Of a stretch of 64,000 nucleotides of DNA, positions 2,170-35,125 are shown in pieces. Under the pieces are notes generated by a model that saw only the letters and a list, made by a program, of their open reading frames with translations, made no database searches and was not told the DNA's origin. Within the stretch, counting starts at the first letter, position 1. Every line of letters starts with the position of its first letter. The DNA lies in contig NC_018227.2 in the NCBI RefSeq assembly GCF_000304355.2, positions 372,001-436,000 of the forward strand, in the 5' to 3' direction. This DNA comes from Methanoculleus bourgensis MS2 (GTDB lineage Archaea; Halobacteriota; Methanomicrobia; Methanomicrobiales; Methanoculleaceae). The position numbers and the translations under genes were made by a program.

Positions 2170-3227
2170 CAGGCATCCCTCCGGTGCATGAAGAGGTAGA
2201 TGAAGAACGGCACCCCGAGGAACGCGGTCACGATCCCGACCGGCAGGACCTGCGGCGCAAGGATACTCCGGCCGACGCTGTCGGCGGCAAGGAGGAGGAC
2301 GGCCCCCACGAGCCCTGACGCCGGGATGAGGGTGCGATAGTCGCCGCCGATGGCCATCCGGGTGATGTGCGGGGCCACGAGCCCGATAAACCCGATGGTG
2401 CCGGTGAAACAGATGATCACCGCGGTGATGAGGGAGGCGACCATCATGAAGACCATCATCGACCGCTCCACCGGCACCCCGAGGCCGGCCGCCACCTCGT
2501 CACCTTCGGCGAGGGCGTTGAGGTCCCAGGCCCGGTAGATGAGGTAGGGGACGGTGCAGGCGATGACGAGGGTCACAAGCCCGAGTTTTGGCCAGGTGGA
2601 TTTGCCCACCGACCCGAACATCCAGAAGACCACCGCCTGGAGCTCTTCGGCGGTCCCGACGTACTGGAGGAGTGATGTCACCGCAGAGAAGAGGTACATG
2701 AGGGCGATGCCGGCGAGGATCATCGTCTCACTGCTCACGCCCCGGTAGCGGGCCATTCCGTAGATGGCGACCGATGCAAGCAGGGCGAAGAGGAAGGCGT
2801 TTGCGATGATGAGGTACTCCCCGCCGACGAACCCGGCACCGAGGACGATGGCGACCGACGCCCCGGTGGCGGCTGCCGAGGATATCCCGAGGGTGAAGGG
2901 GCTTGCGAGCGGGTTTCTGAGGATACCCTGCATGACTGAACCTGCCACCGCAAGCCCGAACCCTGCCACGACCGCAAAGAGCACCCGGTGGAGCCGGTAG
3001 TCCCAGACGATGACATCGGCCATCTCGGGGGCGGTGAAGGTCTCCGGGAAGAGGCCGGCGAGGATGGCGAGGTAGGACTCGCCCACGGTGAACCCCGCCG
3101 ACCCGAGGGTGACCGCGACCCCGACGAGGATGACGAGCAGGGCGAGGAGCCCGCCGATAAAGACCGTCCGGGTCTTCTTGAGCCGGGCGTACCCCTCACG
3201 CAGAATGACGCTCTCTTCCATGGGCAT
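2169..3227 (-). CDS. ABC importer permease, FecCD family
   Basis: Integral membrane subunit of 352 residues with about ten hydrophobic helices, the usual build of FecCD/BtuC permeases. The segments GSVMQGILRNPLASPFTLGIS and TGTIGFIGLVAPHITR are the family's conserved core and the loop that contacts the ATPase. The gene ends one base into the ATPase gene and starts 8 bases after the stop of the binding-protein gene, so the three are almost certainly co-transcribed. The substrate is set by the binding protein and is not visible here. Confidence 0.92.
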   Translation of the reverse strand: MPMEESVILREGYARLKKTRTVFIGGLLALLVILVGVAVTLGSAGFTVGESYLAILAGLFPETFTAPEMADVIVWDYRLHRVLFAVVAGFGLAVAGSVMQGILRNPLASPFTLGISSAAATGASVAIVLGAGFVGGEYLIIANAFLFALLASVAIYGMARYRGVSSETMILAGIALMYLFSAVTSLLQYVGTAEELQAVVFWMFGSVGKSTWPKLGLVTLVIACTVPYLIYRAWDLNALAEGDEVAAGLGVPVERSMMVFMMVASLITAVIICFTGTIGFIGLVAPHITRMAIGGDYRTLIPASGLVGAVLLLAADSVGRSILAPQVLPVGIVTAFLGVPFFIYLFMHRRDA

Positions 3228-3235
3228 CTTCCCGG

Positions 3236-4429
3236 TCAGGGATAGACGAACGCGCCCTCTGACGCGAGGTTGAAGTCAAGCCCCTGGAACTCGGTGAGGT
3301 AGCGCTGGTGAACAGCGTTCGGGTCGAGGTCGGCGAACCGCTCCGGGTAGAACCACTTCGCGAGGTAGGCGGTCCCGATGAAGTGCTGGGCGCCGCCGAG
3401 GATGTCAGAGTGGATGACGTAGACCCGGTCGTCCGCCACCGCAGCGAGCCGCGTCCACCCGGGGCGCTCAAGAATGGCCGACTGTGTCGCCTCGAGCGCC
3501 GCGACGTCGTGCCCCACATACCCGCCGGCCGCCAGCTTCTGGCCGGTGAGTTTGACGACGACCTCTGGGTTGCTGACGATGACCGCCTCAGGGTCGATCT
3601 CCGGGTACTCGGCGGATTCACCGGCGAAGGGGTTGTACCCCCCGGCGATCTCCAGTTTCTCGTTATACCCGGAACCTGACGCGAAGGTCTTGTAGTCGGC
3701 CCAGTACTCGAAGTAGACCCGGGTCTTCTCATCGTCCGGGACGTCGGCCGTGCCGGCCCTGATTCCGTCCATGACCGAGGTGTAGAAGCGGGCGAACTCA
3801 TCGCCCCGGTCTTCGCACCCGGTCGCGGCCGCGATGGTTCGGATCTCGCCCGGGTAGGTGGCCGGCTTGAAGCAGTCAAACCGCAGGACCCTGATGCCCG
3901 GGCTGCTCGCATCCAGTTTCTGCTGGATCTCGTCGCAGGCGGCGGTGCTGATCGTCGCGTAGAGGAAGACGGCATCCGGCCTGAGGGTGAGGACCCTCTC
4001 CATGTCAGGGGACCAGATCGACCCGACGTTCGCCTTCCCTCCGCATTCGGGGAAGAAGGTGCTCTTCTCGTGACTGTACTTGTCGACGGCCACGACCTTC
4101 TCCATAGCAAACCCAAGCGACCGGAGCGTCTCCAGGGACTCGCCGGTGAAGGTCACCACCCGGCGGAGAGGGCGGGAGAGGGTCAGGGTCTGCCCTGAGG
4201 AGTCGGTGATCTCGAGGGGGCGTCCGTCCCAGCGGGCGAGGACCCAGGCGGCGTCCTGGATATCAGTCCGGGTGAGGTCTCCTTCGCCGACGAGGTAGGC
4301 GAGGACCGCGGCCGTGTACTCGGGCTGGTCAAGGACTCCGTTGCCGTCAGCGTCCCCGGGGATGCCGGCGGCAGAGGCCGTGCCCGCGATGAGGAGGAGC
4401 GCAACGGCGAGGAGGAGGTGGCGGTTCAT
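3236..4429 (-). CDS. ABC importer substrate-binding protein with EF-hand-like N-terminal module
   Basis: Secreted or anchored periplasmic-binding-protein-like subunit (FecB/BtuF, TroA superfamily) of 397 residues. Residues 1-21 form a signal peptide. Residues 25-37 (GDADGNGVLDQPE) form a calcium-binding EF-hand loop, followed by a second weaker segment, as in dockerin modules. The ligand-binding domain runs from about residue 75 (PLRRVVTFTGES) to the end. It overlaps the upstream secreted-protein gene by four bases and precedes the permease by eight. The EF-hand insertion is unusual for a simple binding protein and may attach it to a partner or stabilise it; that is inference. Confidence 0.85.
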   Translation of the reverse strand: MNRHLLLAVALLLIAGTASAAGIPGDADGNGVLDQPEYTAAVLAYLVGEGDLTRTDIQDAAWVLARWDGRPLEITDSSGQTLTLSRPLRRVVTFTGESLETLRSLGFAMEKVVAVDKYSHEKSTFFPECGGKANVGSIWSPDMERVLTLRPDAVFLYATISTAACDEIQQKLDASSPGIRVLRFDCFKPATYPGEIRTIAAATGCEDRGDEFARFYTSVMDGIRAGTADVPDDEKTRVYFEYWADYKTFASGSGYNEKLEIAGGYNPFAGESAEYPEIDPEAVIVSNPEVVVKLTGQKLAAGGYVGHDVAALEATQSAILERPGWTRLAAVADDRVYVIHSDILGGAQHFIGTAYLAKWFYPERFADLDPNAVHQRYLTEFQGLDFNLASEGAFVYP

Positions 4430-33041: not shown

Positions 33042-33113
33042 GCCGCTGTGGCTTAGTGGTATAGCGGCTGATTCGTAATCAGCAGGTCGGGGGTTCGAAT
33101 CCCTCCAGCGGCT
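33042..33113 (+). tRNA. tRNA-Thr (CGT)
   Basis: Acceptor GCCGCTG pairs with CAGCGGC. Anticodon stem GCTGA/TCAGC encloses loop TTCGTAA (anticodon CGT, reads ACG), and the T loop is TTCGAAT. Discriminator is T, and CCA is not encoded. A T-rich box near 33005 may be its promoter. A lower-GC gene cluster begins about 140 bases downstream. Confidence 0.95.
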
Positions 33114-33255
33114 TATTTACGGGCGGTTCAAAGCCCTGTTCGATTGTTCCAGGCCCTTTCTCTGGTCTCAGTCTTTCGCCGATCAAAGATCAGGGGAGCG
33201 CCTTTGGTTTTTCCATGACAACCCGCCGGCTTTTCGGGCGGAGAATCTGGTTTTA

Positions 33256-33447
33256 TCAAGGGCTTTGCGGTTCATCAGTGTACGGAACGCAAATCTTCAG
33301 CTCCACAATATCCCCTTCCGCATCGATGCGGTCCATATCCTCGATAAACAGGCGCTCCCTCTCCTGCTCTGCCATGTCGGAGCGAAGTTCGTCAAATGTC
33401 TGGCTCATGTTACCATTTTCCCGGCGGGGCGTAGTCAGGCGGTTCAT
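33256..33447 (-). CDS. Small acidic protein, third gene of the HicA-like unit
   Basis: Frame of 63 residues; an internal ATG at 33408 (MSQTFDELRSDMAEQERERL) gives a cleaner 50-residue acidic helical protein. It ends in a strand (DIVELKICVPYTDEP). It follows the HicA-like gene by 25 bases on the same strand and could be the antitoxin, but it is not HicB-like. No family recognised. Lower GC than the neighbourhood. Confidence 0.5.
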   Translation of the reverse strand: MNRLTTPRRENGNMSQTFDELRSDMAEQERERLFIEDMDRIDAEGDIVELKICVPYTDEPQSP

Positions 33448-33472
33448 GCTGAGGTTGCCCTGGATGAGCGTC

Positions 33473-33754
33473 TTAAAACTGGATCCAACGGTCGAGGTAG
33501 ATATCGATCAAGCCCTGCTCAGATAAAGCGCAGTCAACGAGATCTTCAAACTCGCTCTTCTCTATCTTCAACTGCTTTGCCATGATACCTATCAACTTAT
33601 CGCTGATCTCTTTTGTCCCGTGGCTGACCCAGGTTACAATCCGGGTTTTCTTCCCGTTATGGTACAGGGTAAGTTTGATGTCCTTTGAGTTATGCTGCTG
33701 AAATCCCTTCTTCAGCAGAGCTCTCTGGATCGCCCGGTTTTTTCGTGTCCCCAA
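33473..33754 (-). CDS. HicA-like small protein
   Basis: A 93-residue basic protein. RALLKKGFQQHNSKDIKLTLYHNGKKTRIVTWVSHGTKEI has the strand order of HicA/YcfA mRNA-binding toxins, with a His in the place of the catalytic one (VSHG). The tail LIGIMAKQLKIEKSEFEDLVDC is longer than in classical HicA. It lies between a 348-residue unknown and a small acidic protein on the same strand, directly abutting the former's stop. The toxin role is inferred from fold resemblance; a plain RNA-binding role is possible. Confidence 0.55.
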   Translation of the reverse strand: MGTRKNRAIQRALLKKGFQQHNSKDIKLTLYHNGKKTRIVTWVSHGTKEISDKLIGIMAKQLKIEKSEFEDLVDCALSEQGLIDIYLDRWIQF

Positions 33755-34801
33755 CTATATCCCCTCATCCAGAAGCGAACGCAGTTTGTTGCGGAATACA
33801 ATCCCCCCTTCTGTCAGATTCCCGGTCTCCTCCTCAACATAGTCCAGCCAGAGTAACTTGAGTTCGTCGTTAATCCGTTCTACCCCGTCCTTCAGGTTAC
33901 CGGATGTGACCAGGAGGTTGAACTCGTTGTTATACAGAATGTATTCGTCGTTCTCAAATTCAACTTCCAGGTCAATGGGATATCGCAGCTCGCGGATATC
34001 CTCATTAAACCTGATATGAGTAAGTGGGAGGGAATTAAGGGGTTTAAATGCCATTTCGCCCTCTATATTGATACTGCGTGCCGTCTTCCCGATCGATCCG
34101 CTGACGCTGACGAGCTGTTTAATCCTCTTGATGACAAATTCTTCCAACTCCGGAGGGTATCTGCACGTGTACTTCCCTTCGGGAGTATCGATGACGAACT
34201 GGCGTTTCCTGTCCACCCTCAACTCTACCATACGGCCCGATATTGTCTTCTCAGTTGGTTTTGGTGGTCTTATCAGGGCGTTCTTAATTATCGGCTTTCT
34301 TGTGCGATCCAGTTTGATCGGCCCCAAAGAGCCAAACCCAAGAGTTACATCGTATATTGAATCCTCATCAGGCCAGAGGTTCTCCAATTCCTGAACTGAC
34401 CGAATCGCCCGGTGCTCGTCGCCGTGGAGTAATTCAACAACTTCTGGGAAGATATCCTCCTGGTTTGACGCGATATCTATAACAGTGCCCACGAGGGAGA
34501 TCGCGCGTTCTCCATAGGTGCCGCCTGCACCAGGCAGCCCGTACTGGTCGTGTGAAACCCTCATGGTGATGGCGGCGCTGCCCTGCTCCAGCCGTGATAT
34601 AACCAACTCGCAGTTCTGCTTCACGCTCTTAGGGAAATCACCTGCAGTTCTTGGTTGATGCCCCTCCAGGTGGTCCCCCATAATATACATCAAATTTTGA
34701 ATTGCCTGGAAGTTGCTGATAAGAGCGTTAACGGATATCTCCGGGTGGTTTTTATCGTTTGACTTAATGTAGAGAGCGATCTCTCTGCTCGATCGGACCA
34801 T
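33755..34801 (-). CDS. Unrecognised 348-residue protein, first gene of the HicA-like unit
   Basis: Begins MVRSSREIALYIKSNDKNHP and has a helical N-terminal half (to about 170) and a strand-rich second half with a short segment resembling a small beta-barrel (RKRQFVIDTPEGKYTCRYPP, about 205-225), possibly an OB-like or nucleic-acid-binding fold. No membrane helix, signal peptide or enzyme motif is evident. Lower GC than flanking genes. Its stop abuts the HicA-like gene start, so the three genes form one unit. Function unknown. Confidence 0.6.
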   Translation of the reverse strand: MVRSSREIALYIKSNDKNHPEISVNALISNFQAIQNLMYIMGDHLEGHQPRTAGDFPKSVKQNCELVISRLEQGSAAITMRVSHDQYGLPGAGGTYGERAISLVGTVIDIASNQEDIFPEVVELLHGDEHRAIRSVQELENLWPDEDSIYDVTLGFGSLGPIKLDRTRKPIIKNALIRPPKPTEKTISGRMVELRVDRKRQFVIDTPEGKYTCRYPPELEEFVIKRIKQLVSVSGSIGKTARSINIEGEMAFKPLNSLPLTHIRFNEDIRELRYPIDLEVEFENDEYILYNNEFNLLVTSGNLKDGVERINDELKLLWLDYVEEETGNLTEGGIVFRNKLRSLLDEGI

Positions 34802-34962
34802 TCACCAGTTCCCTCCCGCACGCTCCTCCGAGCTATCGATTATAATGGCGGTCTGCGTATGAACATTTATGTGTATGGGTAAGCCCGGGTTACCTGAGGT
34901 TCTGCCCGGCCTCCTGCTGACGTCTGCACCCCGGGGACAGAGAGCCTCCGGCAGACCTGAGG

Positions 34963-35066
34963 CACTACTGGAGCATTTCGCCTTATGTTGCGGGTCCTGA
35001 TGCGTGGGAGTGATCGCCGCCGCACGCGACCATCGCATGGAAAATATTAGGTGAAACGGTCCACTA
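34963..35066. repeat. MITE-like inverted-repeat element, copy B (reverse)
   Basis: Read on the minus strand it starts GTGGACCGTTTCACCTAATA and ends ACATAAGGCGAAATGCTCCA then GTAGT. These match the ends of the copies near 58.4 and 61.2 kb. It fills most of the 324-base gap between the HicA-like unit and the DUF1269-type gene; the rest of the gap has no gene. Confidence 0.5.
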
Positions 35067-35125
35067 TACCCCGAAGTGCACCGCGGACCGTAGATCCCAA
35101 GCCCCCGGGACCGATCGTCACGCAC

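Follow-up and report, generated by a model that had tools for sequence, protein, structure and literature searches.

Beside a tRNA-Thr gene, the 64-kb stretch of DNA analysed here (the window, G000:C1:372001-436000 of a 2.79-Mb archaeal genome) carries a two-gene hicBA pair of the published Class 8 type, located in a variable site. The HicA of this pair has most likely lost its toxicity, or much of it, and would then be kept as the partner of an unusually large HicB. The original prediction had proposed a unit of three low-GC genes on one strand, and the three minus-strand ORFs (348, 93 and 63 aa, Table 1) are indeed present, with the end of the tRNA-Thr gene 142 bases away from them, close to the predicted 140. 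Their lower GC content was also confirmed (50%; the window has 62%), and of 625 stretches of equal length in the 64 kb not one was as low in GC as the three ORFs. The interpretation of the third ORF and of the partner of HicA, however, had to be changed.

Table 1. Features of the hicBA locus (positions in the window)
Feature	Position	Strand	Basis or remark
tRNA-Thr (CGT)	33042..33113	+	left border of the variable site
relBE relic	33195..33404	-	RelB-like end and RelE-like start, frameshifted and truncated; overlaps the acidic ORF
Acidic ORF, 63 aa	33256..33447	-	
Acidic ORF, 50 aa from an inner ATG	33256..33408	-	
hicA (gene B), 93 aa	33473..33754	-	TTG start abuts the hicB stop
hicA codon 25, GAC (Asp) replacing the family histidine	33680..33682	-	family alignment
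hicB (gene A), 348-aa Class 8-type HicB antitoxin	33755..34801	-	ORF, homologues, model, dN/dS
HicB residues 1-180, N-terminal domain of unknown function	34262..34801	-	AF2 model, mixed domain
HicB residues 181-254 (about), OB-fold middle domain	34040..34261	-	beta-barrel-like strands in the model
HicB residues 255-348, HicB-like domain	33758..34039	-	common to short HicBs

The 93-aa protein was correctly described as HicA-like. It matches the HicA family PF07927 with an E-value of 0.0011, which is below the curated cut-off, and 14 of 20 members of its family also match PF07927, while a profile-profile comparison with the canonical HicA of the genus gave an E-value of 4.5e-9. Homologues begin at the same place as the start assigned to the window hicA. 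The model has the dsRBD-type order helix-strand-strand-strand-helix, followed by extra C-terminal helices (residues 66-73 and 79-88), and the credible fold matches in the PDB are HicA structures only, those of Thermus thermophilus TTHA1913 (1whz, probability 0.95) and Burkholderia pseudomallei (6g26, probability 0.80), both with E-values above 0.1. Hence, in profile and in fold the protein belongs with the canonical HicAs, from which it differs by an Asp25 at the equivalent of the catalytic His24, by a longer C-terminus and by a far larger partner.

That partner, which the original prediction had found to be lacking, is the 348-aa protein encoded directly upstream, since its C-terminal end is HicB-like. 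The AlphaFold (AF2) model of this protein (pLDDT 85.7) shows a C-terminal region that is strand-rich and then helical (258-341), with a strand-strand-strand-helix pattern, and the domain shares 40-52% identity with HicBs of about 140 aa. In a single hhalign comparison with the local canonical HicB, it gave an E-value of 0.0012, compared to 0.23-0.63 for the other domains of the protein used as controls, and five of 12 family members match the antitoxin family PF12910 (best E-value 0.0009). Taken together with the shape of the model and the gene context, this weak profile evidence suggests that the C-terminal domain is a HicB domain. Among 100 relatives, 29 carry a homologue of the large HicB, and a search of 393 genomes of the phylum with its profile found 64 that match; both figures also count genes that have only the HicB end in common with it.

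Upstream of the HicB-like end, the model has a strand-rich middle (about 184-254). We attribute an OB fold to this domain because Foldseek finds, in the PDB, mostly lysyl-tRNA synthetases, besides RPA and PolD (E-value about 0.01, the highest probability being 1.0). A function as a tRNA synthetase or as TiaS was rejected, because the lysyl-tRNA synthetase matches span just about 85-110 columns and those to TiaS have an rmsd near 20. The N-terminal domain has no match in Pfam, a search of PDB sequences with the three family profiles returned nothing meaningful, and a match to hutH (E-value 0.22) is noise; a known enzyme is thus unsupported by Pfam, NCBIfam or PDB sequence matches. The claim that the large protein has no recognisable family therefore holds for Pfam and NCBIfam, but not for its architecture, which fits a published class of HicB. 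As a separate observation, two uncharacterised phage proteins of 370-381 aa, Q6NE06 of Leptospira phage LE1 and A0A8S5QA00, one of them named DUF6575, resemble the large HicB fold over 270-302 columns. In one large-HicB homologue match (L043, G113:C1:229286-230305), there are two in-frame TAG codons.

The class in question is Class 8, described by Gerdes 2024 in mBio (PMC10865869). According to the published class description, Class 8 HicBs of 331-356 aa consist of an N-terminus without known function (1-171), a lysyl-tRNA-synthetase-like domain (175-253) and a HicB fold (255-342), and the HicA encoded after them has about 95 aa and two additional helices at its C-terminus (PMC10865869). The window pair has the corresponding size and order, with a HicB of 348 aa and a hicA start right after the hicB stop; the same three domains can be recognised in its HicB from the model, the OB matches and a modest C-terminal profile support; and its HicA, at 93 aa, combines the dsRBD fold with two C-terminal helices. 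As in the class description, neither protein has a recognisable DNA-binding domain, as judged from Pfam and NCBIfam. The assignment was made by the description of the class, and the window HicA departs from it in having an Asp at the conserved histidine. A new type of toxin-antitoxin or defence system had been proposed for this locus; a module of the toxin-antitoxin type is what we find, but of a class that has already been described.

The gene pairing and the domain types suggest that the pair is an antitoxin neutralising a toxin in the type II sense. By analogy with characterised hicAB systems, a free HicA would cleave RNA, and the HicB end would grip and block HicA, while the OB and N-terminal parts of HicB may replace the usual DNA-binding domain and serve in regulation or sensing. 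Of the two neutralisers that had been considered, the large protein is thus the likely one, and the acidic ORF, a relBE relic, is not. For none of the Class 8 pairs did we find data on toxicity, binding or RNase activity.

Whether the window HicA could act in this way depends on one residue. In B. pseudomallei HicA, His24 lies in the beta1-beta2 loop, and its change to Ala abolishes toxicity (PMC3969222). The equivalent residue 25, which the model also places in the beta1-beta2 loop, is a histidine in 94 of the 95 distinct HicA relatives covering the position, whereas the window protein, at the place of the histidine of an active HicA mRNA interferase, has an Asp. The sole other copy with Asp25 is that of the sister genome G023, at the same site and with the codon GAT; as far as we know, this replacement is a new point. 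Because the histidine needed in the B. pseudomallei HicA is an Asp here, the window HicA is most likely non-toxic or much weakened. In the window and in the sister genome, HicA may then be a binding partner of HicB, with a role in the complex, in operon control or in RNA binding, rather than a killing enzyme.

Both genes show strong constraint. Between the window and G023, hicA has changed at 31.5 of 57 synonymous and 13.5 of 225 nonsynonymous sites, which gives a dN/dS of 0.062 (Fisher p 6e-16), and the dN/dS of hicB is 0.108 (Fisher p 3e-45), values that come from one genome pair with a high synonymous divergence (dS about 1). This strong purifying selection on both genes therefore points to more than simple decay. 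A toxin that lacks its key residue and is yet kept by selection could help to tell the toxin chemistry apart from other roles of the pair. One may tentatively extend this to a "pseudo-toxin" lineage of hicBA, in which the Asp-containing HicA has been turned into a regulatory subunit that binds RNA or the antitoxin, or works with a different active-site chemistry, although we would not give this extension better than a modest chance.

The purifying selection would also fit a HicA that is still an active mRNA-cleaving toxin, using Asp25 and His45, perhaps close to each other, in a growth-arrest or abortive-infection pair. Many HicAs have a second histidine spatially near His24 (PMC3969222), which His45, kept in the window protein and invariant in the 20-member family alignment, seems to match, and this residue could carry residual activity. 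Nevertheless, we consider an active toxin unlikely, given that the histidine replaced by Asp25 is otherwise unvarying and that its loss to Ala was sufficient to abolish toxicity in B. pseudomallei (PMC3969222).

It is less probable still that the module is decaying, with an inactivated toxin on its way out. A one-base deletion in a purine-rich stretch interrupts hicA in G023 (L098, 1375-1652) and is found in the matching public contig (L031) as well, and the window pair adjoins a relBE relic, as might be expected of a degenerating locus. However, a hicA dN/dS of 0.06 at a dS of about 1.0, with the region past the frameshift included, is unlike that of a long-dead gene. The sequences before and after the deletion both show constraint, so the deletion must be recent or else a sequencing error; the latter is conceivable because G023 is a fragmented metagenome assembly.

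The association of the two genes extends well beyond this site. In a collection of 102 distinct HicA-like proteins, 97 are preceded immediately, on the same strand, by a HicB-like ORF, so that the first two of the three predicted genes are nearly always paired, while all three were found together nowhere else. The upstream partners are of the large type in 42 cases, short HicBs with an N-terminal DUF7557/VapB-type domain in 32, and others in 23, the latter having the HicB-like end alone or with a different N-terminus. The DUF7557/VapB-type HicBs lie directly before a HicA of about 92 aa (L013 1363-2057, L015, L018, L021, L026 and about 27 more loci). These DUF7557-HicB pairs of the Methanomicrobiales, in hicBA order, provide the nearest relatives of the HicB end and of HicA outside the small group of the window; they have a DUF7557/VapB-type N-terminus of about 40 aa, where the window HicB instead has an N-terminal and OB region of about 250 aa.

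Of two DUF7557 groups in the HicA tree, the main one adjoins the large-type group of the window (support 96/86), while the other is placed apart. The tree of the HicB ends, a quick tree with many unresolved forks, concurs for the window group (SH-aLRT 87). Since both trees put the large-HicB pairs beside DUF7557 pairs of one order, the head of HicB has probably been exchanged: HicA and the HicB end seem to stay together when the HicB front is replaced. A HicB with an N-terminal DUF7557 (VapB/RHH-like) in hicBA order has no counterpart among the 14 classes that PMC10865869 gives in its main text and is, to our knowledge, a new combination; no mention of DUF7557 was found in the literature searched. 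A comparison of the large-HicB and DUF7557 pairs bears on the nature of the head, which may serve in regulation, in sensing or in DNA binding.

A role of the hicBA pair in defence against viruses is possible, because a related pair is found on a virus, Methanocaldococcus fervens tailed virus 1, and because Gerdes argues for such a role (PMC10865869). The viral genes gp38 and gp37 likewise encode a large HicB-like and a HicA-like protein and overlap, but they differ from the window pair in being viral, in sharing only 23.5% and 38% identity with it and in keeping the HicA histidine. They correspond to 2441-3427 and 3420-3734 of NC_074641.1 (L164) and are annotated as hypothetical. A tblastn search of plasmids gave no match, and scans of viral contigs with single proteins gave nothing.

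A more specific form of defence, in which the pair would be a distant member of the PADLOC candidate PDC-M32, protecting against phages through the N-terminal domain with HicA as the effector, is very doubtful. PDC-M32 is a two-component candidate (PMC12429752), its PDC-M32A profile weakly matches residues 28-125 of the large HicB (E-value 0.001), and the large protein has the fold-level match to phage proteins of 370-381 aa mentioned above. Against this, five other large HicBs that were tested all failed to match, no match to the B component (PDC-M32B) was obtained with any HicA tested, and the family was undetected in 149 genomes of the class in a search that detected no control either. Membership of PDC-M32 is unsupported beyond a weak partial match.

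The third ORF overlaps a relic of a relBE pair, a 211-nt segment with 78% nucleotide identity to the intact relBE of another genome, G016 (L122, E-value 2e-45). The relic has a frameshift and lacks both ends, so that instead of an intact RelB-RelE pair only the end of the antitoxin and the start of the toxin remain. A RelB-like antitoxin matching the 50-aa part is found in 24 of 35 genomes of the genus, typically with a RelE-like toxin next to it in the copies that were read, and the genome of the window itself has another RelB-like copy at 1137126. In G023, the hicBA copy stands without the relic. Hence, because the acidic ORF belongs to a relBE relic with relatives at other sites of the genus and is missing in the sister copy, it was rejected as a component of the unit, and the predicted three-gene unit is reduced to two genes. 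The idea of a novel toxin-antitoxin or defence type made up of three genes, with the acidic protein neutralising the HicA-like one, can be practically dismissed: three adjacent low-GC ORFs on the same strand speak for it, but intact versions of the relic elsewhere pair with RelE-like toxins, the ORF is absent from the sister copy and the hicB-hicA pair is already a published class.

The relic and the hicBA pair lie in what looks like a gene-turnover hotspot. Across the genus, the left-flank gene and the tRNA-Thr gene are conserved, with at least a partial match to the probe in 34 of 35 genomes, whereas the DNA to the right of the tRNA-Thr gene (33113-35125 in the window; L100-L117) differs from genome to genome. 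Among 20 genomes compared at this site, two of which have little or no sequence past the tRNA-Thr gene, hicBA is present only in G023 besides the window. Between these two genomes, the hicBA pair has a dS of about 1.0, compared to 0.22 and 0.35 for the two flanking genes, and this greater divergence suggests that hicBA arrived separately, or was replaced, at the same site. At the same tRNA-Thr site of a further genome (G001; L103 4175-5203, minus strand), there is an ORF that resembles a DNA methyltransferase by its motifs.
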